Program-made: the position numbers and the translations under genes
In this document: piece after piece, positions 185 through 14,809 of the stretch
Numbering within the stretch: position 1 is the first letter of the stretch
Layout: each line of letters starts with the position of its first letter
Notes under the pieces: generated by a model
Told to the model about the DNA's origin: nothing
Databases searched by the model: none
The model's input: only the letters and a program-made list of their open reading frames with translations
Source: Chitinispirillaceae bacterium
Lineage (GTDB): Bacteria; Fibrobacterota; Chitinivibrionia; Chitinivibrionales; Chitinispirillaceae
Length of the DNA stretch: 50,778 bases
Reading direction: 5' to 3'
NCBI GenBank assembly: GCA_016926315.1
Contig: JAFGOU010000592.1
Coordinates: 1-50,778 of the forward strand

Positions 185-2599
185 ATGAACAGCAGTAATT
201 TCCGCGATACTTACCGACGGTACCTTACCAACTTTCTCGCCAAGAACGAGTTGACGGCGACGCCCTACGACCGTTTTCTGTCGCTTGCCTACGCGCTGCG
301 AAGCGAACTGATGAAAAACTGGGTCGAAACCCAGCGGCGTTATCATGAGCGCAACTACAGGCGGATTTATTATTTGTCTACTGAATACATCCTCGGCAAG
401 AGCCTGTTCCAGAATCTTCTGAGTCTCGAAGCGGAGAACGAGGTGATGAGGGCGGTTGAATCGCTCGGGGTTCAGATGGACGATCTGCTGGCCCAGGAGG
501 ATGACTGCATGCTGGGCAACGGGAGCGAAGGGAGGCTGGCCGCCTGTCTGCTTGAGGCGCTGGCGACGCAGAAGTTTCCTGCGGTAGGATACGGGATCCG
601 CTACGAGTATGCCCAGTTCCACCAGGAGATACGCAACGGCATTCAGATCGAACGTCCCAACGACTGGCTGCGTCGCGGCAATCCATGGGAGATCGTGAGG
701 CCTGAATATGCCTGTACCGTAAGGTTCGGCGGCGAGTGTCACCGGATGCAATCCGGGGACCTTCTGGGCTCTTATGCATGGAAAAATGCCGAAATGGTCC
801 ATGCGATTCCCTATGATATGCCGATCGTCGGCTATCGCAACAATGTGGTCAATACGCTGCGATTATGGACCGCGCGGGCGTCCGAAGAGTTCCTCCCCGA
901 TTATCTCAACCACGGCGACTACGAACGCGCCTGCGATGATAAATCAAAATACAGCAATATCACCCGGATACTGTTCCCTGACGAAGACGTCCGCCGCGCT
1001 ACCGATCTGCGGATGAAACAGCAGTATTTTTTCGTCAGCGCTTCCCTTCAGGACATTATACGGCGTTTCAAACAGCACAACAGCGACATGGATGATCTCG
1101 ATAAGAAAGTCGCCATACATCTCGGAGGGAGCCGCTGTTCCCTTGCTATTCCGGAATTGATGAGGATACTTGTCGACCAGGAAGGCGTTCCATGGGAAAG
1201 GGCATGGGAGATGACCCGTGCCATATTTTCATATACGAGCCACGCCGTTTCACGGGAAGACTCGGAAATATGGCCGGTCTACAAGGTCGGCCAGATATTG
1301 CCGCGTCATCTCCAGATTATTTTCGACATCAACCAGATACACCTTGACAAGGTGAGAAAGAAATACGGTGATGACCCCGATCATCTGCGGGGCCTGTCGC
1401 TTATCGAGGAAGGTGAGGTAAAACGGATACGGTTCGCCGATATTGGAGTCCTCGGCTCCTCGTCGGTCAACGGCGTTTCAAGGGAACAGACCGATATCCT
1501 CAGGAAAAAAGTATTTACGTCCCTTGCCTTGTACGCTCCCGAACGGTTTACCTGCAAGGTAAACGGCGTCGGGCAGCGGCGCTGGCTGCTTACGATCAAC
1601 CCTCCTCTGGCGAAACTGATCACAAAAAGCATCGGTGAAAAATGGATAAAAGAACCCGAATCGCTGAAAGAACTTGAACACCTGGTCGAAGACGAGCGGT
1701 TTCTGGAATCGCTTGCGACGATGAAGAAAACGGCAAAGGTTAAACTGGCGGACTCGTTGAAAGGTGTCCCCGGTTTTCCTTCGGAAGAGTCGTTCATGTA
1801 TGACGTGCAGCTTGGCAAGATACACCTTAACAAGAGACAGCTGCTGCATGTTCTGTATATACTGCACCGCTATCTGAGCTTTCGTAAGGGCCTTTCGGCC
1901 GGCGCCCGCAGGGTCCATATCTTCGCGGGAAAGGCGTCGCCTTCGGATTTTCTGGCGAAACAGATTATCCGTCTCATAGCGGCGACAGCAGATTGCATCA
2001 ACAACGATCCGGAGATCCAGAGACTCATGCGTGTCGTCTTTATCCCTGATTTCAACATGACATGGGCCGAGAATATCATCCCGGCGGCTGATCTTGCCGA
2101 ACATCTTTCCACTGCCACCATGGAACCGGCCGGAACGTTCAATATGAAGTTCGCGCTCAACGGCGCGGTTTCGATTGCCAGCCTCAGCGGAGCGAACAAT
2201 GAAATAGCGGAAAAAATCGCCACGGAATATATTTTTACTTTCGGGAAGGGAGCTGAAGACCTGGCTGCAATGCAGGATTATCGTCCTTCGGATATTCTGG
2301 CAAAGGATGAGCGGCTGAGAGATATCTTCAACTTTCTGGAAGGAGAACTGGTTCCGAAAACCCCTAAAGGGAACGCTCTCCATCCTCTGCTGTCCTCGCT
2401 CCGTGACAGCGACCGCCAGTACACCCTTCTTGATTTCGATGATTACGTGAAAAAGCAGGATCTTATTGATACGCTGTATGCGTACCCGCTTGCATGGGCT
2501 AAAACCAGATGTTTCAATATAGCCCGCATCGGATGGTTTTCAAGTGACCGCCTGGTGCACGAGTATGCCCGCGATGTATGGAAGATCGATCCGGAGTGA
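185..2599 (+). CDS. Glycogen phosphorylase family protein with altered active site
   Basis: This 804-residue protein is collinear with GT35 glycogen/maltodextrin phosphorylases, which release glucose-1-phosphate from alpha-1,4-glucan using PLP. The scaffold is clear: GYRN around 217, LPRHLQII around 372, IPAADL around 632, and the PLP lysine K655 in NMKFALNG. Most substrate and phosphate motifs differ from the family. GNGGLGR is GNGSEGR (111-117), NDTHP is GGSRC (314-318), YTNHT is YTSHA (350-354), NGITPRRW is NGVGQRRW (460-467), the KR of IKRLHEYKRQ is GK (544-545), and EASGTGNMK is EPAGTFNMK. It may bind PLP and glucan but be inactive or altered in specificity, so the symbol glgP is withheld. 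No clear Shine-Dalgarno precedes the ATG. ptsI follows after 50 bp. Confidence is high for the family and low for activity. Confidence 0.9.
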   Translation: MNSSNFRDTYRRYLTNFLAKNELTATPYDRFLSLAYALRSELMKNWVETQRRYHERNYRRIYYLSTEYILGKSLFQNLLSLEAENEVMRAVESLGVQMDDLLAQEDDCMLGNGSEGRLAACLLEALATQKFPAVGYGIRYEYAQFHQEIRNGIQIERPNDWLRRGNPWEIVRPEYACTVRFGGECHRMQSGDLLGSYAWKNAEMVHAIPYDMPIVGYRNNVVNTLRLWTARASEEFLPDYLNHGDYERACDDKSKYSNITRILFPDEDVRRATDLRMKQQYFFVSASLQDIIRRFKQHNSDMDDLDKKVAIHLGGSRCSLAIPELMRILVDQEGVPWERAWEMTRAIFSYTSHAVSREDSEIWPVYKVGQILPRHLQIIFDINQIHLDKVRKKYGDDPDHLRGLSLIEEGEVKRIRFADIGVLGSSSVNGVSREQTDILRKKVFTSLALYAPERFTCKVNGVGQRRWLLTINPPLAKLITKSIGEKWIKEPESLKELEHLVEDERFLESLATMKKTAKVKLADSLKGVPGFPSEESFMYDVQLGKIHLNKRQLLHVLYILHRYLSFRKGLSAGARRVHIFAGKASPSDFLAKQIIRLIAATADCINNDPEIQRLMRVVFIPDFNMTWAENIIPAADLAEHLSTATMEPAGTFNMKFALNGAVSIASLSGANNEIAEKIATEYIFTFGKGAEDLAAMQDYRPSDILAKDERLRDIFNFLEGELVPKTPKGNALHPLLSSLRDSDRQYTLLDFDDYVKKQDLIDTLYAYPLAWAKTRCFNIARIGWFSSDRLVHEYARDVWKIDPE

Positions 2600-2649
2600 A
2601 CAGCCGCCGCATGACGTGAACGGCATCGGCGCTTCATAAGGTGCATACG

Positions 2650-4401
2650 ATGAAAAAAGAGATCAGACTTACCGGTATCCCCGTCGTATCAGGGTGGGGA
2701 ATGGGCAAGGCGTACTTTGTGGGACGGTCTGTTCAGCAGACGTCGACGGTATCAATTTCCCGTCAGGACCTCGGCAGTGAGATCATGCGGTTCAACGAAA
2801 TAAGGGAGCGCGCAAAAAAGGATTATCATCGGCACGTGGAGGAACTCGGCAAATCCGGGGGCGCCGATTCGTCCATTGTCAGCATATACCAGCATATTCT
2901 TGACGATCCGGCGTTCATAGGACAGGTCGTCGATAATATTTCAACAAAGCTGTATGACGTCGAGACCTCAATCAGAATAGTATCAAACGATTTTATCAGG
3001 CGGTTTGATGCCGCAGGCACGTCCTATTTCAAGGAACGTTCAGGCGATATGGTCGAGATCTGCGAGAAGCTGATCTCTTACCTCTATGAGGATGACGGGC
3101 GTGCCAGGAAATTTCTGGAACCGGTGATTCTTGTCGTCATGCGGACATTTACGCCGAGCGATATCCTTGCCTATGATAAATCAAAAATATGCGGTGTTAT
3201 CACCGCCAGCGGCGGCAAAACCTCTCATGCAGCCATCCTGGCAAGGTCCTATTCCATCCCTGTTGTTTCCGGCATTGGAAACCTTTCCGAGAACATTACA
3301 CCGGGGGATGTCGTCCTCGTCGACGCCGAGAAGGGCGTCGTTTATATCAGGCCCCAACAGTCCGTTGTCAGCAGGTATAAACGCCAGACGGTTGACGGGT
3401 CGATATTTGAAGAGTTAAGGAAAAAATGGCAGAGACCCGTATATACCCGTGACGGGGTAAAAATCGAAGTGATGGCGAACATTTCACTGCCTGAAGATGC
3501 GGAAGAAGCGAATATGTACGGCGCTGACAGCATCGGGCTGGTGAGGACGGAGTATCTCCTTTCGAACCGCAAGGAGATGCCTGCCAAGGATGTCCAGCGA
3601 GCCTATTATGAAAGCATCTTTAAGAAGGTGCATAGAAAGCACTGCGTGTTAAGGCTCATGGACATAGGCGGCGACAAGGTGCCGCAGTTTTTCGACATGC
3701 CCCCCGAGTTCAATCCTTTCATGGGGTGGAGAGCCATACGCATATTTCTTGAACGCAGGGAATATTTCGAAGACCAGGTGGAAGCGATCATGACCGCGGC
3801 ACGGACGTCAAATTACTCGATAATGGTGCCGATGGTCAGCACCCTTCAGGAGTGGATGGAAGCGAAAGGGGTGATAAGAGGTGTGGCGGAAAAACTGGGC
3901 ATGGAAATGCCCAAGTGCGGTGTGCTTTTCGAAGTGCCGCTCGCCATCCTCGAGATAAGCATGTTTCTCAAGGAGATGGATTTCGCTTCCATAGGCACCA
4001 ACGACCTGCTGCAGTATCTCAACGCGGCGGACCGCAACAATGCTAAGGTGAACTATTTGTATAACCCTGTTGAGCCGGCTTTTCTGCGGATTCTGCGCAC
4101 CGCGATCAAGACTGCCAATGACGGAGGAATGAAACTTTCCGTCTGCGGCGAAATGGCGGGGAATCCGCTCCATTGCGTGCTTCTGGCCGGCCTCGGTTTG
4201 AAAAGATTCAGTGTCATACCGCGGGTCATCCCGCTCATTAAGGAGATCATTTCACGTATCAGTTTTCTCGAGGTAGCCGAGAGTATTTCTTATATCGACG
4301 CGGTTGACTCGACCGAAGACATGTCACGCTGGCTCAAGAACCTGAACAAACGCTTCCTTGGGGATCTGCTCGATAAATTCCCCGTTACGGTCGACGTATA
4401 A
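2650..4401 (+). CDS. ptsI: Phosphoenolpyruvate-protein phosphotransferase (PTS Enzyme I)
   Basis: Enzyme I takes phosphate from PEP and passes it to HPr. The 583-residue protein has the N-terminal EI domain, then the swivelling phosphohistidine domain with GGKTSHAAIL (active His about 193), then the PEP-binding TIM barrel. The barrel shows MDIGGDK, NPFMGWRAIR, SIGTNDL and the C-terminal SVCGEMAG with the conserved catalytic Cys (about 499). Key residues look intact, unlike the gene upstream. The ATG at 2650 is chosen because TAAGGTG ends 6 bases before it; a GTG at 2641 would add three residues and overlap that site. No HPr or EII gene is in the window, so a regulatory phosphorelay is as likely as sugar transport. 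Confidence 0.93.
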   Translation: MKKEIRLTGIPVVSGWGMGKAYFVGRSVQQTSTVSISRQDLGSEIMRFNEIRERAKKDYHRHVEELGKSGGADSSIVSIYQHILDDPAFIGQVVDNISTKLYDVETSIRIVSNDFIRRFDAAGTSYFKERSGDMVEICEKLISYLYEDDGRARKFLEPVILVVMRTFTPSDILAYDKSKICGVITASGGKTSHAAILARSYSIPVVSGIGNLSENITPGDVVLVDAEKGVVYIRPQQSVVSRYKRQTVDGSIFEELRKKWQRPVYTRDGVKIEVMANISLPEDAEEANMYGADSIGLVRTEYLLSNRKEMPAKDVQRAYYESIFKKVHRKHCVLRLMDIGGDKVPQFFDMPPEFNPFMGWRAIRIFLERREYFEDQVEAIMTAARTSNYSIMVPMVSTLQEWMEAKGVIRGVAEKLGMEMPKCGVLFEVPLAILEISMFLKEMDFASIGTNDLLQYLNAADRNNAKVNYLYNPVEPAFLRILRTAIKTANDGGMKLSVCGEMAGNPLHCVLLAGLGLKRFSVIPRVIPLIKEIISRISFLEVAESISYIDAVDSTEDMSRWLKNLNKRFLGDLLDKFPVTVDV

Positions 4402-4432: not shown

Positions 4433-4660
4433 TTATTCAGGAGGCAGCAGAGAGGCACCTATAAGGAAGATATGCTGGGGCGCTTGCGCGCTTACGTAGC
4501 TCCGGTCGTGCGTGCCTTCCCGTGAAATAAAATAGTGCGCTATGCCTTCGTTATGCAGTAGTGAATCCATCCTGCGGTTCCCTTTAAGGGCAAAATCTTC
4601 TGTTCGCAGTATCCGGGCGTTCATGGCGGATGCCTGCATGGATTTTAACGCCGGCCGCAC
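4433..4660 (-). CDS. Small hypothetical protein downstream of folE
   Basis: This is a 75-residue open frame starting 10 bases after the folE stop on the same strand and ending 31 bp from the convergent ptsI. I recognise no family. There is no signal peptide, membrane segment or metal motif. The context would fit a two-gene unit with folE, but the frame could also be chance read-through of the folE 3' untranslated region. Treat it as a weak prediction. Confidence 0.3.
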   Translation of the reverse strand: MRPALKSMQASAMNARILRTEDFALKGNRRMDSLLHNEGIAHYFISREGTHDRSYVSAQAPQHIFLIGASLLPPE

Positions 4661-4670
4661 AGGGAAAGGA

Positions 4671-5222
4671 TCAGGCCCTGTCCATGCCGATAAGATTAAG
4701 AAATTCCATGCGTGTCGACTGTTTTTTACGGAAGCATCCGAGCATGGCAGAGGTTACCATTCTGGAATTCTGTTTCTGAACGCCGCGCATCATCATGCAC
4801 AGATGGCGCGCCTCAATCACGACACCGACGCCCTGCGCATCAATCGGTTTTTCAAGGGAAGCGGCTATCTGCTGTGTCAGTCTCTCCTGAACCTGCAGCC
4901 TTCGGGCAAAGCAGTCAACAAGCCGTGCCAGTTTGCTTACGCCGTAGACTCTGTTTTTTGCGATGTAACCTATGTGGCACTTGCCGAAAAAAGGAAGCAG
5001 ATGGTGCTCGCACATGCTGTATACTTCAATGTCGCGCACGATAATCATATGGTTGCATTCTTCCGTGTAAACGGCGCTTTTCAGTATCCCGGCAGGGTCC
5101 TGAGCATACCCCTGCATGAGGAATTCATAGGCGCGCTTGACCCGTGCCGGTGTCTTGATCAAACCATGACGGCGGGGGTTTTCACCGATTGCGGAAAGAA
5201 GCTGCCTGATGATTTTTTCCAT
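4671..5222 (-). CDS. folE: GTP cyclohydrolase I
   Basis: FolE converts GTP to 7,8-dihydroneopterin triphosphate, the first step of folate/pterin synthesis, in the cytoplasm. The 183-residue length is normal for the short bacterial form. Zinc ligands are visible: C71 and H74 in [11 protein letters not shown], and C142 in [10 protein letters not shown]. The family stretch [20 protein letters not shown] follows the usual order, as does [12 protein letters not shown] near the C-terminus. The ATG is preceded by GGGAGC at good spacing. The gene lies opposite to its neighbours and converges on ptsI. Confidence 0.95.
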
Positions 5223-5375
5223 GGATGCTCCCGGTCGTTGAAGAATCGGTTGTTTTCATGAAAATACTCAAAGCAGAGCATGCAAAGATAGGTGTCTGTT
5301 TCTTGAAGGTGACAGTATAAAAAGATATTTTTCAAACGCCATGCGGTTATTGCCCGGGAAGGCGCGTTAAAGGAT

Positions 5376-6464
5376 ATGGGTCATATACAAGTGAAGAACA
5401 GGAGATCGGGATTGAGTACCCGTACAGTGCTCCTCGGGCTGCTGGTCCTCGTATGCTGCGCCGGTATTTTCGTGTTGGTGGTGGAGGTGATCAGGAACGC
5501 CGCGCCGGAAACGAAGCGGCTTGAATTGTACTATAAGGGGGCTCAACGGTTCAGCGAGGAGCAGAAAGCGCTTTATCTGAAAGGAATAGCAGGTTTCTGG
5601 GCTTTCGATTTGGAGAAAATAGCCGGGGGAATGCTCGTCAGCAAGAAAGACCGTCTTGAAATCAAGGAGAACGGCATCGTATGGCAGGCCGTTGAATGGA
5701 AAATGACGATGCCGGACAGTACCCGGACGGTTCTGACGCAGATTCGTACGGTCTATATCAATCCGTACGGCATCTCCAGGGGAGACACGCTCAGTGATGC
5801 TTATGTGCTTTCTCAGGCGTTTTTCGGCGGAGAAGACACTTGTTTCGGCGGGTATAACTACTCCGAATTGTGGCAGATGGCCCGCAGAGGCGGAGACCTT
5901 GTGTTGTCAAAACGGAACTACCGGCCTTACCGGGGAGCATTGGCCGTTTTTTTCCCCGCAGGCGCGGTAGATTTGGTGGAGCGCTCCGAAAAGCAGCTCT
6001 ATTACGATACGATCGCCGGGGGAGTCCGGGAGACAAAGTTGAATTCGGTAAATTACATACGGAAAACCGACGCTGGCACCGGGAAGGTTTCCCTGCTTCC
6101 GATCCGTGATTCCATCACCGGACTTGACGGATATTTCAGACTTTTTCTTGAAGGCAGATGGGGGAAGATGCAAGTCGGGATCCATGATGAAAACGATGCC
6201 GCCGTTCTTTTGGAAAAATATCATCAGCCTTTTATCGTTGATGAACAATGGCGGCTGTTTCCGAGGCCGCTGCCCAGAAAAGTCAGGGTGTATTTTATTA
6301 TCATGGCCGACGGCAGAGTTGACAGCGTACGGTTGCTGTATTCCTCGGAGAAGATTAACGCGATGTTTATCTCTGATTTGACCGCGCAGGTCGCGTCCTG
6401 GCGTTTTCCGGCCCACCATGCTTCTTCAATCCGGGTGTCACATACATTTACCATGCCTCATTAG
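5376..6464 (+). CDS. Single-pass membrane protein with TonB/AgmX-like C-terminal domain
   Basis: The 362-residue protein has a basic N-terminus and one membrane helix at about 18-40, so most of it is predicted to be periplasmic. The central 240 residues match no family I know. The last 70 residues (IIMADGRVDSVRLLYSS, then VASWRFPAHHASS) resemble the C-terminal domain of TonB and of AgmX/PglI proteins: a G-x-V strand, a helix, then WRFP. There is no proline-rich linker, so it is not a classical TonB. The ATG has AAAGGA only one base away; a TTG at 5411 with AGGAGAT upstream is a credible alternative start that keeps the helix. The hybrid kinase gene follows. Confidence 0.6.
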   Translation: MGHIQVKNRRSGLSTRTVLLGLLVLVCCAGIFVLVVEVIRNAAPETKRLELYYKGAQRFSEEQKALYLKGIAGFWAFDLEKIAGGMLVSKKDRLEIKENGIVWQAVEWKMTMPDSTRTVLTQIRTVYINPYGISRGDTLSDAYVLSQAFFGGEDTCFGGYNYSELWQMARRGGDLVLSKRNYRPYRGALAVFFPAGAVDLVERSEKQLYYDTIAGGVRETKLNSVNYIRKTDAGTGKVSLLPIRDSITGLDGYFRLFLEGRWGKMQVGIHDENDAAVLLEKYHQPFIVDEQWRLFPRPLPRKVRVYFIIMADGRVDSVRLLYSSEKINAMFISDLTAQVASWRFPAHHASSIRVSHTFTMPH

Positions 6465-9988: not shown

Positions 9989-11872
9989 TTACTGCCGGAC
10001 GAATTGAAGAATGCGCTCGACAATGCTTTCCGGATCTAACGAAAGAGACATAAGCAGTCTGTCGATGCTTCCGTGTGGAATGAACTGATCCGGAAGTCCC
10101 AGACGCAGGAACCGCGGCATGCGCCGCAGGCCGCAGTCAGAGGCAAAGGAAAGCAGCGCAGAACCGAACCCGCCTTCGAGGTTGTTGTTCTCCAGCGTAA
10201 CGATGTCAGGATACTCCTTAAAAAGGCGCGTATAACTCTCGCGGTCGAAAGGTTTGATGAACTGCGCGTCGACAATGGCGGGAGAGATGCCGTGACTTTG
10301 AAGCATTTCGCCCGCCTCCGATGCCAGCGTGAAAAAATCACCGGCACTGATGAGGGCGCATCCTGAACCCGGCCTGACGACATCAGGAACGCCTGCAGGC
10401 AGAACCTGCAGCGGTTTGTCAAGGGCTGCGCCGGGACCGCAGCCGCGGGGATAGCGGATAAACGAGGGGCCCTTGGTATTCGCAAGAGCGGTATAGAGCA
10501 TCTGACGGAGGCTGTTTTCATCGCGGGGCGCCATGATTGAAGCGCCAGGGACACCCCGCAGGAAGGACAGATCGAACAGCCCGTGATGGGTTGGACCGTC
10601 GTCGCCGACGAGTCCTGCCCGGTCAATGCAGAAAACCACCGGCAGATTATCCAGCGCGACGTCATGAATAATCTGGTCGAGCGAACGCTGAAGAAAAGTC
10701 GAGTATATGGCGACGACAGGCCGCAGCCCTTTAAGCGCCAGGCCGGCTGCGAAGGTGACCGCATGCGGTTCCGCTATGCCGACATCGAAGAAGCGTTCAG
10801 GAAATTCCCTGGAGAATTTTTCAAGGCCGGTGCCGTCACGCATGGCGGCGGTGATAGCGACGATTTCAGGACGTGTACGGGCGATATCTGCCAGGGTGGA
10901 GCCGAAAACTTCGCTGTAAGAGGGCGTTTTCTTCGTTGCCGTAATGGTTTCGCCCGTCGTTTTTGAAAAGCTGCCGATGCCGTGGAATTTCGTCGCATCG
11001 TCTTCGGCAAAGCTGACGCCTTTGCCTTTGGTGGTAATGACATGCACAAGCACCGGCGTTCGTGAAAACTGCTGGACGGCTTTAAAGACCTCTATCATTT
11101 CGTTGATATTATGACCGTTGATCGGGCCGAGATACTGTATTCCCATATCCTGGAAGAGCTTGCCGGGGATAAGAAGATGCTTGAGAGAGTCGTCGATGCT
11201 GTGCACGACGTTCCGTATGCTTTTTCCGACACCGGGAAGCGTGCCGAGCATGTCCCATATCTCGGATTTTATCTTATGGTATCGTTTATCGGTTATCACA
11301 CGGGTAAGATAGCGTGACAATGCGCCGACGTTTTTTGAAATGGACATTTTGTTGTCGTTAAGAACGATAGTCAGTTTGGTCGTGCTGGAACCGAGATTGT
11401 TCAGCCCCTCAAAGGCGAGGCCTCCGCTGAGCGCGCCGTCACCGATAACGGCCACGACCTCTTGTTTTTGCCTGAGGAGGTCACGGGCCTGCGCAATGCC
11501 CAGCGCAACGCTGATGGACGTCGAAGCGTGACCCGAAGAAACGGCATCGTACTCACTTTCCGTTACGCGCGGGAATCCGCTTATACCGTTGAACTGCCTG
11601 AGGGTTTTGAACCGTTCGCGCCTGCCGGTAAGTATCTTGTGCGCGTATGCCTGGTGCCCCACATCCCATACCAGGATGTCTTCCGGTGTATTATAGGCAT
11701 AATGGAGCGCGATGGTGAGTTCAATCGCGCCCAGGCTCGGTGCAAGATGGCCGCCCGTACGGCTTACCACATCAACCATAATTTCGCGGATTTCTCCGGC
11801 AAGTTTCGGAAGATTTTCAGGAGGTAATGCCCGCAAATCAGCTGGAGAGTTGATCGAATCAAGCAGTTTCAA
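9989..11872 (-). CDS. dxs: 1-deoxy-D-xylulose-5-phosphate synthase
   Basis: Dxs joins pyruvate and glyceraldehyde-3-phosphate, with thiamine diphosphate, to open the MEP isoprenoid pathway. Family motifs are intact: SRTGGHLAPSLGAIELT, WDVGHQAYAHKILTGRR, the ThDP motif VIGDGALSGG through LNDNKMSIS, and DRAGLVGDDGPTHHG. I place the start at the TTG at 11872 (protein MKLLDSINSPADLR, 627 residues), 7 bases after AAGGA, because this matches typical Dxs N-termini. A longer frame from the GTG at 11908 takes its first eight codons from an insertion-sequence terminal repeat and is not the native start. The IS separates the gene from a predicted promoter at 13288-13316. The gene is convergent with the anti-sigma gene. 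Confidence 0.95.
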   Translation of the reverse strand: MKLLDSINSPADLRALPPENLPKLAGEIREIMVDVVSRTGGHLAPSLGAIELTIALHYAYNTPEDILVWDVGHQAYAHKILTGRRERFKTLRQFNGISGFPRVTESEYDAVSSGHASTSISVALGIAQARDLLRQKQEVVAVIGDGALSGGLAFEGLNNLGSSTTKLTIVLNDNKMSISKNVGALSRYLTRVITDKRYHKIKSEIWDMLGTLPGVGKSIRNVVHSIDDSLKHLLIPGKLFQDMGIQYLGPINGHNINEMIEVFKAVQQFSRTPVLVHVITTKGKGVSFAEDDATKFHGIGSFSKTTGETITATKKTPSYSEVFGSTLADIARTRPEIVAITAAMRDGTGLEKFSREFPERFFDVGIAEPHAVTFAAGLALKGLRPVVAIYSTFLQRSLDQIIHDVALDNLPVVFCIDRAGLVGDDGPTHHGLFDLSFLRGVPGASIMAPRDENSLRQMLYTALANTKGPSFIRYPRGCGPGAALDKPLQVLPAGVPDVVRPGSGCALISAGDFFTLASEAGEMLQSHGISPAIVDAQFIKPFDRESYTRLFKEYPDIVTLENNNLEGGFGSALLSFASDCGLRRMPRFLRLGLPDQFIPHGSIDRLLMSLSLDPESIVERILQFVRQ

Positions 11873-11876
11873 CGGT

Positions 11877-11884
11877 AAATCCTT
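11877..11884. repeat. Target-site duplication, left copy (AAATCCTT)
   Basis: This is an 8-bp direct repeat, identical to 13267-13274, flanking the insertion sequence. Read on the minus strand it is AAGGATTT, which contains the dxs Shine-Dalgarno. Eight bp is the usual duplication length for IS256-family elements. Confidence 0.9.
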
Positions 11885-11911
11885 GGTAGTGTCAAGATTT
11901 TTTCGCACATT
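11885..11911. repeat. IS256-family terminal inverted repeat, dxs side
   Basis: Outer end GGTAGTGTCAAG, inner end TTTTTCGCACATT. The inner block is identical to the inverted copy at 13240-13266. Confidence 0.85.
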
Positions 11912-11976: not shown

Positions 11977-13161
11977 TCAGGCCGCCGCCTCCTGCATCAG
12001 GTTCTTCTTAGCCAGCAGTTCCATGTCCAGGTATTTCTTGCTGCTCCAGACAGTCCCTGCAACGTGTCGTAGTCTCGCAGCGGCCAGCATGAGCGCCGAG
12101 TTGCCGTCGGGGAAGCTCCCCACGACCCTGGTACGCCTCCGTATCTCACGCATGAGCCGCTCAAGGCTGTTGTTCGTCCGTATCCGCGTCCAGTGTTCCT
12201 GCGGGTACGACATGTAGGTCAGCGTGTCCAGGAGCGACTCCGTGACCTTTTCCGCGGCCTTCGTGAGCTTCATGCCCCGGAGCTTCTCGGCAACCGCCTT
12301 GCCTTTCGCGTCAGCATCCTCCCGGCTCTCCTGCGCGTGGATCGCCTTCAGCATGACCGCCACCTCCCGCATGAGCTTGTTGGGAACCACCGAAAACACG
12401 TTACGGTAGAAGTGAACCACGCACCGCTGCCATTTTGCGCCTTCAAAGCACTCGTGAAGGGCCTCCACAAGGCCCAGGCAGCAGTCCGAGATGAACAGGT
12501 CTACGCCGTGCAACCCCCGCTCCTTGAGCCAGCGCAGGAAGCCAAGCCATCCTTCCTTGTCCTCCTTCGCCCCTTCCGCAACACCCAGAATCTCCCGGTA
12601 GCCGTCATCCGCAACGCCGATAGCCACCAGCACGGAAACTACCCTCACCTCGCCAGCCCAGCAGCGCTTCAGACATATCCCGTCCATATACACATACGGG
12701 AACGCCCGCTCGATGGGCCGGTTCCGCCACTTCTCGATGTTCGCGTACGCCTTCTTGTTCAGCTCGCTTACCGTGCCCGCAGACACCTTCGTCCCCCACA
12801 GTGCCTCGGTGATGTCCTCCACGCGGCGAACAGAAACACCGGCTAAATACATCTCTATGAGCGCCTCCTCTACCGAGCACTCCCGCTGGCGATATCGCTC
12901 GATAATCGCCGTCTCGAACGGAATCGTGCGAAGCTTCGGAACTTTAAGGCTCACTTCTCCGGCCTTGGTCTGTAGTTGACGAACATAATGTCCGGCCCGG
13001 GTATCCTTCCGCGCATCGGTATGCTCATATCTCGATGCATTGCATAGACGATCCGCCTCCTGGTCCAGCAATCCGTTCAACGTCTCTTCCACACTTCCCC
13101 GGACCATCTCTCCAAGCTGGTTCTTGATGAACTCCTCGTTTACTTCAATTATTTTACCCAC
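11977..13161 (-). CDS. IS256-family (mutator-type) transposase
   Basis: This DDE transposase is of the Transposase_mut family. Relative to the longer frame from 13200, the catalytic residues are D173 (VYMDGICLK), D239 (FISDCCLGL) and E347 (RTNNSLERLMREIRRRTR). The family C-x2-H signature is CVVHFYRN at about 260. Length (394 residues) is normal for the family. I choose the GTG at 13161 because AGGAGG lies 5 bases upstream; another GTG at 13200 has no such site. It appears intact. Transcription through it could continue into dxs, because about 100 bp without an evident terminator separate the two. Confidence 0.93.
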   Translation of the reverse strand: MGKIIEVNEEFIKNQLGEMVRGSVEETLNGLLDQEADRLCNASRYEHTDARKDTRAGHYVRQLQTKAGEVSLKVPKLRTIPFETAIIERYRQRECSVEEALIEMYLAGVSVRRVEDITEALWGTKVSAGTVSELNKKAYANIEKWRNRPIERAFPYVYMDGICLKRCWAGEVRVVSVLVAIGVADDGYREILGVAEGAKEDKEGWLGFLRWLKERGLHGVDLFISDCCLGLVEALHECFEGAKWQRCVVHFYRNVFSVVPNKLMREVAVMLKAIHAQESREDADAKGKAVAEKLRGMKLTKAAEKVTESLLDTLTYMSYPQEHWTRIRTNNSLERLMREIRRRTRVVGSFPDGNSALMLAAARLRHVAGTVWSSKKYLDMELLAKKNLMQEAAA

Positions 13162-13239
13162 GAGACCCTCCTCTGGTTGTTTGTAAAGTGAATTTAGCAC
13201 TCACCAACAATATACCAGTCCGAGGGTCTCACCTCAAAA

Positions 13240-13417: not shown

Positions 13418-14809
13418 TTATGGTGACCTGATCGTGGCTTCGATGGCATCGATTTTTTTTCTCAGCTCACCGTTTTTGCCTATTTCGCTTTCGATTTTTT
13501 TACATGAATGAATTACCGTTGAATAATCCCGGCCGCCGAAATCGAGACCAATGGAATTGAGTGACTGGCTCGTCAGCTTTTTACACAGGAACATGGCAAC
13601 GGAGCGGGGGAAAGAGACGTCACGTTTGCGCGTATGGGCGCTCAACTGGTTAGGACTGATTCCGAATGATTCGGCCACTTTTTTCTGGATGTTTTTGATG
13701 GAAATTCGTTCGTTTTTTCGGGAAATGACATCAACGCAGAGCTCTTTAGCGAGATCCAGGGTTATGTCTTTTCCGGTGAATGACGAAGATGCGATCAGCT
13801 TGATGAGGGTACCCTCAAGTTCACGCACGTTGGAAGTGATATTGCCGGCGATGAACTGGACGACCTCATTGGGAAGCGATAACCCGTCCGTTTCGGCTTT
13901 CTGTCGGATGATAGCTATGCGTGTTTCAAGGTTCGGGGGCTGGATATCGGAAACGAGGCCTCCCATAAAACGGCTTATAATGTGTTCATTCATGTCCGGT
14001 ATTTTGTCAGGAGGCCGGTCTGAGGAAAGAACGATCTGCTTTCTTTCCAGAAGCAGCTTGTTGAAAATACGGTAAAATTCCTTCTGCGTGCCTGGTTTTC
14101 CGCTGAAAAAATGGATATCATCGATCAGCAGAAGGTCGACCGTGGTGAATTTTTTATAAAAAGAGGTGGAATCCTTCTGATGAACGACATAGTTGATGTA
14201 TTGTGTCGAAAACTCTTCGCTCGTAAGATAAACGATATTTTCAGCGGTCCCTTCGGTCTTGGCGAAATGACCAACCGCCTGTAGAAGGTGGGTCTTCCCC
14301 AGTCCGGTGCCTCCGTGGATTATAAGAGGATTAAAGGATGTTTTTCCCGGAGCTTCTGCAACAGCCATGGCTGCAGCGTGCGCCATTTGATTGCTGTCTC
14401 CGACTACGAAACGTTCGAAGGTATAGAGAGGGTGGAATTGATTAGGTGTTTCAACGGATGTGCGGGCAGACCTTTCTCTGCTTTCGGTAATTTCATCACA
14501 TATCGGTTCTACGATTTTCCATTCTTTTTGAGTGGGGATAAAGGAAATTGAATTAAAAGAGATTCCGGCTTCTTTTAAGATCTCCTTTATGAGCGATAAA
14601 AAGTGTTCCTCAATAAAGTCGGCAAAAAACTGGTTAGGTACAAGGATATCTGCATTGCCCTGATTCATTGAGAAATCGGTTGTTCGAAACCATGTTTCAT
14701 AGCTTGCCGGACCTATCTTTTCAAAGATTTTACGGAGACATTTCTGCCAGGGAGACAGCGCGGAGGTTTCATCGACGAAATTAGTTTTAAACATGTTGTC
14801 AACATTCAT
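13418..14809 (-). CDS. dnaA: Chromosomal replication initiator protein DnaA
   Basis: DnaA is the AAA+ ATPase that binds oriC and opens the duplex. The 463-residue protein has domain I (about 18-90, WQKCLRKIFEKIGPASYETWF), a linker, and an AAA+ domain with Walker A GGTGLGKTH (166-174) and Walker B LLLIDDIHF (about 226-234). The C-terminal DNA-binding domain carries a DFGGRDYSTVIHSCKKIE-type signature. Length is normal. The ATG at 14809 has no obvious Shine-Dalgarno; a second ATG five codons in would match the more usual start context about as well. The gene is not beside dnaN, recF or gyrB in this window. A DnaA-box-like TTGTCAACA sits on its first codons, compatible with autoregulation. Confidence 0.96.
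   Translation of the reverse strand: MNVDNMFKTNFVDETSALSPWQKCLRKIFEKIGPASYETWFRTTDFSMNQGNADILVPNQFFADFIEEHFLSLIKEILKEAGISFNSISFIPTQKEWKIVEPICDEITESRERSARTSVETPNQFHPLYTFERFVVGDSNQMAHAAAMAVAEAPGKTSFNPLIIHGGTGLGKTHLLQAVGHFAKTEGTAENIVYLTSEEFSTQYINYVVHQKDSTSFYKKFTTVDLLLIDDIHFFSGKPGTQKEFYRIFNKLLLERKQIVLSSDRPPDKIPDMNEHIISRFMGGLVSDIQPPNLETRIAIIRQKAETDGLSLPNEVVQFIAGNITSNVRELEGTLIKLIASSSFTGKDITLDLAKELCVDVISRKNERISIKNIQKKVAESFGISPNQLSAHTRKRDVSFPRSVAMFLCKKLTSQSLNSIGLDFGGRDYSTVIHSCKKIESEIGKNGELRKKIDAIEATIRSP

Follow-up and report, generated by a model that had tools for sequence, protein, structure and literature searches.

In the window analysed here, a stretch of 50,778 nucleotides from a Chitinispirillaceae bacterium, we identified a divergent paralogue of glycogen phosphorylase that is best explained as a dead phosphorylase acting as the dedicated partner of PTS Enzyme I, the product of the next gene, within a PTS that is probably regulatory (we put the probability of this reading at roughly 0.55). 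The label pGP is used here for the clade of divergent GT35 paralogues that includes the window protein. As judged from the sequences, the pseudoenzyme status of pGP is well supported, and the protein has probably evolved from an enzyme into a regulator. The linkage between pGP and Enzyme I is also well supported.

The pGP gene and its rewritten motifs

The pGP gene runs from ATG to stop without internal stop codons. It was located with its changed motifs as follows (motifs are given as canonical form, then window form):

185..2599, + strand: pGP, catalytically rewritten GT35 glycogen-phosphorylase paralogue, 804 amino acids
521..532, + strand: glycine loop, GGLG to GSEG, residues 113-116 (phmmer and clade alignments)
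1124..1138, + strand: NDTHP to GGSRC, residues 314-318 (G at D339 in 148/149 and C at P342 in 147/149 pGP rows)
1238..1246, + strand: NHT to SHA, residues 352-354 (phmmer and clade alignments)
1559..1585, + strand: TNGITPRRW to VNGVGQRRW, residues 459-467, N484 kept (phmmer and clade alignments)
1814..1837, + strand: KRIHEYKR to GKIHLNKR, residues 544-551, K574 kept (phmmer and clade alignments)
1940..1948, + strand: PGY to PSD, residues 586-588, Y613 to D (D in 147/149 pGP rows)
2123..2149, + strand: EASGTGNMK to EPAGTFNMK, residues 647-655, PLP lysine K655 kept (codon 2147-2149)

A preliminary description of this DNA had reported a full-length phosphorylase scaffold in which most active-site motifs were rewritten and the PLP lysine was retained, with E. 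coli MalP as the reference. In a phmmer comparison, the solved human liver phosphorylase aligned to residues 5-803 at 667 bits, and the canonical GGLG, NDTHP, NHT, TNGITPRRW, KRIHEYKRQ and EASGTGNMK lay opposite the changed motifs, all of which were found at the residues quoted; the scaffold, the reference motifs and the retained lysine were thus all borne out. The GK quoted for residues 544-545 sits in GKIHLNKRQ. The changes of G612Y613 to SD and of E572Y573 to LN, together with that of Y648 to F, go beyond those first listed.

Lys655 is the PLP lysine, K680 in the numbering of animal phosphorylase, which is used here along with the residue roles. In this numbering, the window protein carries G135S, L136E, N338G, D339G, T340S, H341R, P342C, N376S, T378A, T483V, K568G, R569K, E572L, Y573N, Y613D, Y648F and G677F, and is unchanged at E88, N133, G134, R292, H377, N484, W491, K574, E672, T676 and K680. 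Compared with what an active phosphorylase (EC 2.4.1.1) should possess, the PLP lysine is present (K655) and the glucosyl site keeps H377, N484 and E672, with N for Y573. The phosphate site is disrupted (G for K568, K for R569, S for G135 and E for L136; K574 and G134 are kept), and so is the acceptor side, where GGSRC and A replace NDTHP and T378, D339 being changed in 149/149 pGP rows.

Whole-length matches to PF00343 (797 bits) and TIGR02093 (847 bits, cut-off 553) and the phosphorylase fold place the window protein in the GT35 family. Its predicted fold is unchanged from that of phosphorylase, and all 50 VIA-align matches listed for it are phosphorylases. The GlgP and MalP equivalog cut-offs were missed (NF011562, 693.6 versus 1546 bits; NF011561, 613.8 versus 1273 bits). 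Chance was considered as the source of the motif changes and rejected: relatives share the rewritten motifs, and the TIGR02093 cut-off is passed while those of the equivalogs are not.

Signature, drift and selection in the pGP clade

Site counts were based on 149 pGP and 68 canonical rows (142 and 67 once identical rows were removed), two duplicates (L011 and L012) having been removed and the deeper pGP members (L157-L162) kept outside; alignment A2 comprised 116 of the 120 proteins listed, the short pieces P0079, P0108, P0115 and P0119 being left out. The canonical rows were invariant at most listed active-site positions, and copies from the same genomes as pGP kept the canonical residues. 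This invariance partly reflects shared descent, because L013-L042, which make up 30 of the canonical 68, are the best-scoring matches of the phylum.

The pGP rows possess a near-fixed signature of their own, comprising G339 (148 of 149), C342 and D613 (147 each), A378 (144) and S376 (143). Other catalytic positions drift within the clade: H377 is kept in 83 of the 149 rows, N484 in 77, Y573 in 59, K568 in 30 and R569 in only 16. Largely kept in the main clade are K680 (145/147), E672 (142/147), W491 (149/149) and K574 (135/149). Of 192 columns that were at least 97% invariant in the 67 distinct canonical phosphorylases, 93 were kept at 90% or more in the 142 distinct pGPs and 24 at 10% or less; of the latter 24, we ourselves assign 14, from the residue roles, to active-site loops or positions next to them. 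Within the PLP pocket, K680, T676, N133 and W491 each remain in 94-100% of pGPs, and the PLP contacts K568, Y648 and G677 are mostly lost (kept in 20, 26 and 6%, respectively). In the deeper branch, K680 aligns with arginine in three of the five full-length members (G026, G029 and G030, which match PF00343 at 393-545 bits), the other two (G027 and G028) keeping lysine; P0128 likewise has arginine at this position.

The preliminary description had proposed a GT35 tree with scoring of the catalytic columns. In quick, unrooted trees, a single branch with SH-aLRT support of 100 parted the canonical rows from the pGP rows, both with 38 main pGP rows (79-row tree) and with 27 main and deeper pGP rows together (53-row tree), and the catalytic columns proved to be rewritten clade-wide. 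The pseudoenzyme reading offered there is therefore well supported by the clade-wide rewrite, the drifting catalytic residues and the arginine that lies opposite the PLP lysine in some of the deeper members.

Purifying selection on pGP is strong. In five of seven close pairs, those in which dS was not saturated, pGP dN/dS was 0.037, 0.052, 0.106, 0.142 and 0.072, a range (0.04-0.14) resembling that of Enzyme I and GlgP; pGP is thus not a pseudogene. Internal stops were absent from the listed pGP matches.

Distribution of pGP in Fibrobacterota

Among 167 Fibrobacterota genomes (G001-G167), pGP was recognised in 39, all within G001-G040, G005 having none. Profile A1 detected 33 of them, 29 near full length and four partial (G010, G013, G033 and G037), and a fragment in G039 and the deeper members in G026-G030 complete the set. 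These genomes include Chitinispirillum alkaliphilum (G007) and Chitinivibrio alkaliphilus (G026), and the source-named close relatives of the window protein belong to Chitinispirillaceae, Chitinispirillales, Chitinispirillia, Chitinivibrionales or 'Fibrobacter sp.'. Where a source names them, pGP relatives are annotated as glycogen or starch phosphorylase. Among the matches listed, G041-G167 gave canonical-range or partial scores; beyond Fibrobacterota, the six proteins inspected among the matches listed as ranking lower than the pGP group (120 per search; P0143, P0144, P0148, P0154, P0177 and P0212) had largely canonical motifs.

A full-length canonical phosphorylase (more than 1080 bits to PF00343) is also present in 30 of the 39 pGP genomes, and G003, G014 and G033 have a further phosphorylase match that is unlisted or weak. 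The PF00343 search gave no canonical match in the other six (G002, G017, G020, G023, G034 and G035), which must be due to incomplete assemblies or real loss. pGP is 39-43% identical to canonical copies of the same phylum, and members of the clade extend down to 32% identity to the window protein with the operon still kept. In nine genomes (G043, G045, G046 and G051-G056) the phosphorylase appeared as two matches, with best scores below the single full-length ones elsewhere, and may be a split or interrupted gene.

Linkage of pGP to PTS Enzyme I

The gene directly downstream of pGP in the window, which offers the strongest hint at what pGP does, encodes PTS Enzyme I:

2641..4401, + strand: PTS Enzyme I, 586 amino acids from GTG, with an in-frame ATG at 2650 (TIGR01417, 432 bits, cut-off 341.7)
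3226..3228, + strand: phospho-accepting histidine of Enzyme I (motif match, GGKTSH)
4144..4146, + strand: C-terminal catalytic cysteine of Enzyme I (motif match, LSVCGEMAG)

Besides passing the TIGR01417 cut-off and carrying both motifs, the product has R296, R332, R358, E431 and N454/D455 in the Enzyme I numbering, and the PDB Enzyme I 2hro matches it at 320 bits. It consists of the three Enzyme I domains only, a Pfam scan having found no N-terminal sensor domain.

In the main pGP loci, a same-strand Enzyme I gene came next in 30 of 34, the remaining four ending with the contig. With deeper and fragmentary loci included (41 in total), it lay directly downstream of pGP in 37 of the 37 loci having downstream DNA; G010 was counted via a second contig piece (L164), and L047, L069, L071 and L072, whose contigs stop short of where Enzyme I would lie, stand outside this count. 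With start codons picked by script, the gap between the two genes had a median of -4 bp, was exactly -4 in 18 of 37 loci and ranged from -11 to 112; in the window it is +50 from the ATG at 2650 and not an overlap. No match to the linked Enzyme I turned up in the flanks examined around canonical phosphorylase genes (30 loci, L010 and L074-L102, with no downstream DNA for L101), and one Enzyme I locus outside the pGP group (L163 in G060) contained no phosphorylase match. The linked Enzyme I itself keeps the phospho-histidine and the examined PEP-site residues in 37/37 loci and the cysteine in 36/37, the other one ending with the contig; of five control Enzyme I rows, L103 and L106 were disregarded because of wrong reading frames.

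Pairwise distances of pGP and Enzyme I were correlated after controlling for DnaA, with a partial r of 0.68 for 16 genomes and 0.58 for 13 genomes when partial rows were dropped; 0 of 5000 permutations reached this value in either set. Of the two types of DnaA paralogue, only one served as the control. This co-variation beyond shared ancestry is suggestive only, because neighbouring genes can share local rate effects. A first mirror-tree that used canonical GlgP as control (partial r 0.96, 23 genomes) was rejected, since the GlgP distances were discordant: the canonical GlgPs of G021 and G022 (L075 and L086) are only 60% identical, compared with 86% for pGP and 93% for Enzyme I, which points to gene transfer or a mis-binned contig. 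Many genomes of the pGP set have two DnaA matches over the cut-off, of two types (loci L166-L195); the window DnaA (13418-14809, - strand) is 72% identical to L195 and 42.5% to L175, both from G001.

Remaining components of the relay and other neighbours

Of 40 genomes, 38 gave a match to HPr (all but G010 and G013), and 19 of the 20 HPr loci read carry the phospho-histidine and serine motifs. EIIA_2 was found in 40/40. PTS_EIIC (PF02378) was found in 0/43 genomes, the search covering permeases of this family and not those of the mannose or ascorbate type. HPr kinase exceeded its cut-off in 6/43 genomes, of which only G031-G033 carry pGP. The presence of Enzyme I, HPr and EIIA_2 together with the missing PTS_EIIC makes the PTS of pGP genomes look like a signalling rather than a transporting system, as far as gene content can indicate. 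At an E-value of 1e-40, the linked Enzyme I was the only match to itself in 11 pGP genomes (G009-G012, G014-G016, G024, G026, G029 and G030). In 27 of 40 genomes, other and more distant Enzyme-I-like proteins also match at this threshold, so HPr may have donors besides the linked Enzyme I there.

Several other genes were noted in the window:

4671-5222, - strand: GTP cyclohydrolase I
5376-6464, + strand: protein with a sub-threshold match to an AgmX/PglI C-terminal domain
11977-13200, - strand: IS256-family transposase, between dxs (9989-11908) and dnaA (13418-14809)

A larger open reading frame over the GTP cyclohydrolase I gene (4542-5261, + strand) has no family match and is probably a shadow. 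An AgmX/TonB-like gene lies downstream of the pGP-Enzyme I pair in 18 of 34 loci, and a GTP cyclohydrolase I gene further downstream in at least 14 of 34. Since these genes are also often kept, part of the pGP-Enzyme I adjacency may be plain synteny. The neighbouring GTP cyclohydrolase I, PdxA, CBM and histidine-kinase genes were also weighed as possible functional partners, but their presence was put down to synteny within the lineage.

Possible function of pGP

We propose that pGP is no longer phosphorolytic and that its phosphorylase fold serves as a partner of Enzyme I. The protein would bind Enzyme I and/or HPr, and would hold a ligand in its former active site or in an allosteric site, such as an alpha-glucan, a sugar phosphate, phosphate, or PLP where the lysine remains. 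When occupied, it would alter the flow of phosphate that starts at PEP and passes via Enzyme I and HPr to regulators of the EIIA type, and thereby may feed carbon-reserve status into a signalling PTS. An ancestral contact between phosphorylase and PTS would then have been kept while catalysis was given up. The near-constant K680 of the main clade allows PLP as a ligand. However, to judge from the deeper branch, pGP can probably fulfil its conserved role without PLP: the PLP sensor considered in the preliminary description is not supported as a general function, with deeper members lacking the lysine in the same operon and K568, Y648 and G677 mostly lost in the main clade. The glucan sensor suggested there may still be correct. 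Some residual chemistry or sugar binding is still conceivable, because K680, E672, W491 and K574 are kept in the main clade and the window protein also keeps H377 and N484. We would suggest more tentatively, as a claim that may well fail, that a Fibrobacterota lineage recruited a dead phosphorylase as an obligate allosteric subunit of Enzyme I, so that the relay would sense stored glucan or sugar phosphate at its very entry.

Another explanation is that pGP is a PLP-dependent phosphorylase or glycosyltransferase with a changed reaction, using another donor or acceptor, and that Enzyme I is adjacent only for co-expression. The nearly constant K680, E672, K574, R292 and W491 of the main clade and the unchanged predicted fold would fit such an enzyme, and near-fixed new residues (G339, C342, S376, A378 and D613) are what a new specificity would need. 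However, H377, N484, Y573, K568 and R569, which bind the glucosyl or phosphate group, vary within the clade, as would not be expected of a functional active site, and arginine takes the place of the PLP lysine in three deeper members whose operon is the same. We therefore consider a changed reaction unlikely, including the phosphorylase with a new acceptor that had been put forward earlier. A further idea is that pGP is a glucan- or PLP-binding sensor that acts not via the PTS but by itself or on canonical GlgP, with which it might form a heterodimer. Phosphorylases being dimers, a dead subunit could modulate an active one, a full-length canonical copy is available in most pGP genomes (30 of 39), and four residues of the PLP pocket (K680, T676, N133 and W491) are retained; but six pGP genomes show no canonical copy, the pGP gene is tied to Enzyme I and not to canonical glgP, and the loss of other PLP contacts and of the lysine in some members speaks against PLP sensing throughout. 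Such a sensor seems improbable to us.

Two other explanations fare much worse. That pGP is an ordinary active glycogen phosphorylase obscured by sequence noise or an alignment artefact would agree with its annotation and with the TIGR02093 match, but the same changes occur in more than 100 distinct sequences while canonical copies of the same genomes keep canonical residues, which makes this highly improbable. A functionless gene decaying within the Enzyme I operon is hardly credible: catalytic motifs have indeed been lost and adjacency can persist by inertia, but the low dN/dS values contradict decay, as do the absence of internal stops, a near-fixed signature specific to the clade and an operon kept at identities down to 32%.

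If pGP is indeed a dead partner of Enzyme I, several consequences would follow. Metabolic models would miscount the glycogen-degrading capacity of these organisms, because sources call pGP glycogen or starch phosphorylase. The tie to Enzyme I suggests a route that links PEP flux with reserve polysaccharide, and pGP makes the role of a PTS without PTS_EIIC permeases directly testable.

Comparison with known systems

Pseudoenzymes are well known among kinases. The preliminary description knew of no described family with the pattern of pGP, and in our searches of the open-licence papers of PubMed Central neither a family of dead GT35 phosphorylases nor a pGP-Enzyme I operon was found described. 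In its lineage, pGP is widespread and conserved. The Chitinispirillum description mentions storage polysaccharides such as glycogen and contains neither 'PTS' nor 'phosphotransferase'; in a Fibrobacteres phylogenomics paper, 'glycogen', 'PTS' and 'phosphotransferase' are all absent. Compared with GT35 glycogen and maltodextrin phosphorylases (human liver phosphorylase, 3ceh and 1fa9; E. coli MalP, 1l5v; GlgP of the same genomes), pGP has its acceptor-side and phosphate motifs rewritten and its catalytic residues drifting within the clade.

The closest likeness in partnership is offered by E. coli, where, according to two papers (PMC11046441, PMC5320558), HPr interacts with glycogen phosphorylase and regulates it. 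PDB entries 9s8b and 9s8k contain a glycogen phosphorylase chain together with an HPr chain. In both systems a phosphorylase-fold protein would work with general PTS proteins. However, the E. coli phosphorylase is an active target of HPr, whereas pGP appears dead and is tied by its operon to Enzyme I, so that the direction of control may be reversed; an obligate Enzyme I subunit, if real, would be the reverse of the known control of HPr over phosphorylase.

A second likeness is to the nitrogen PTS (EINtr, NPr and EIIANtr), described as purely regulatory in PMC4635465: pGP genomes similarly have Enzyme I, HPr and EIIA_2, with PTS_EIIC (PF02378) not found. In contrast to that system, the Enzyme I linked to pGP in the window shows no N-terminal sensor domain in the Pfam scan, and the neighbouring pGP may take the place of such a domain.
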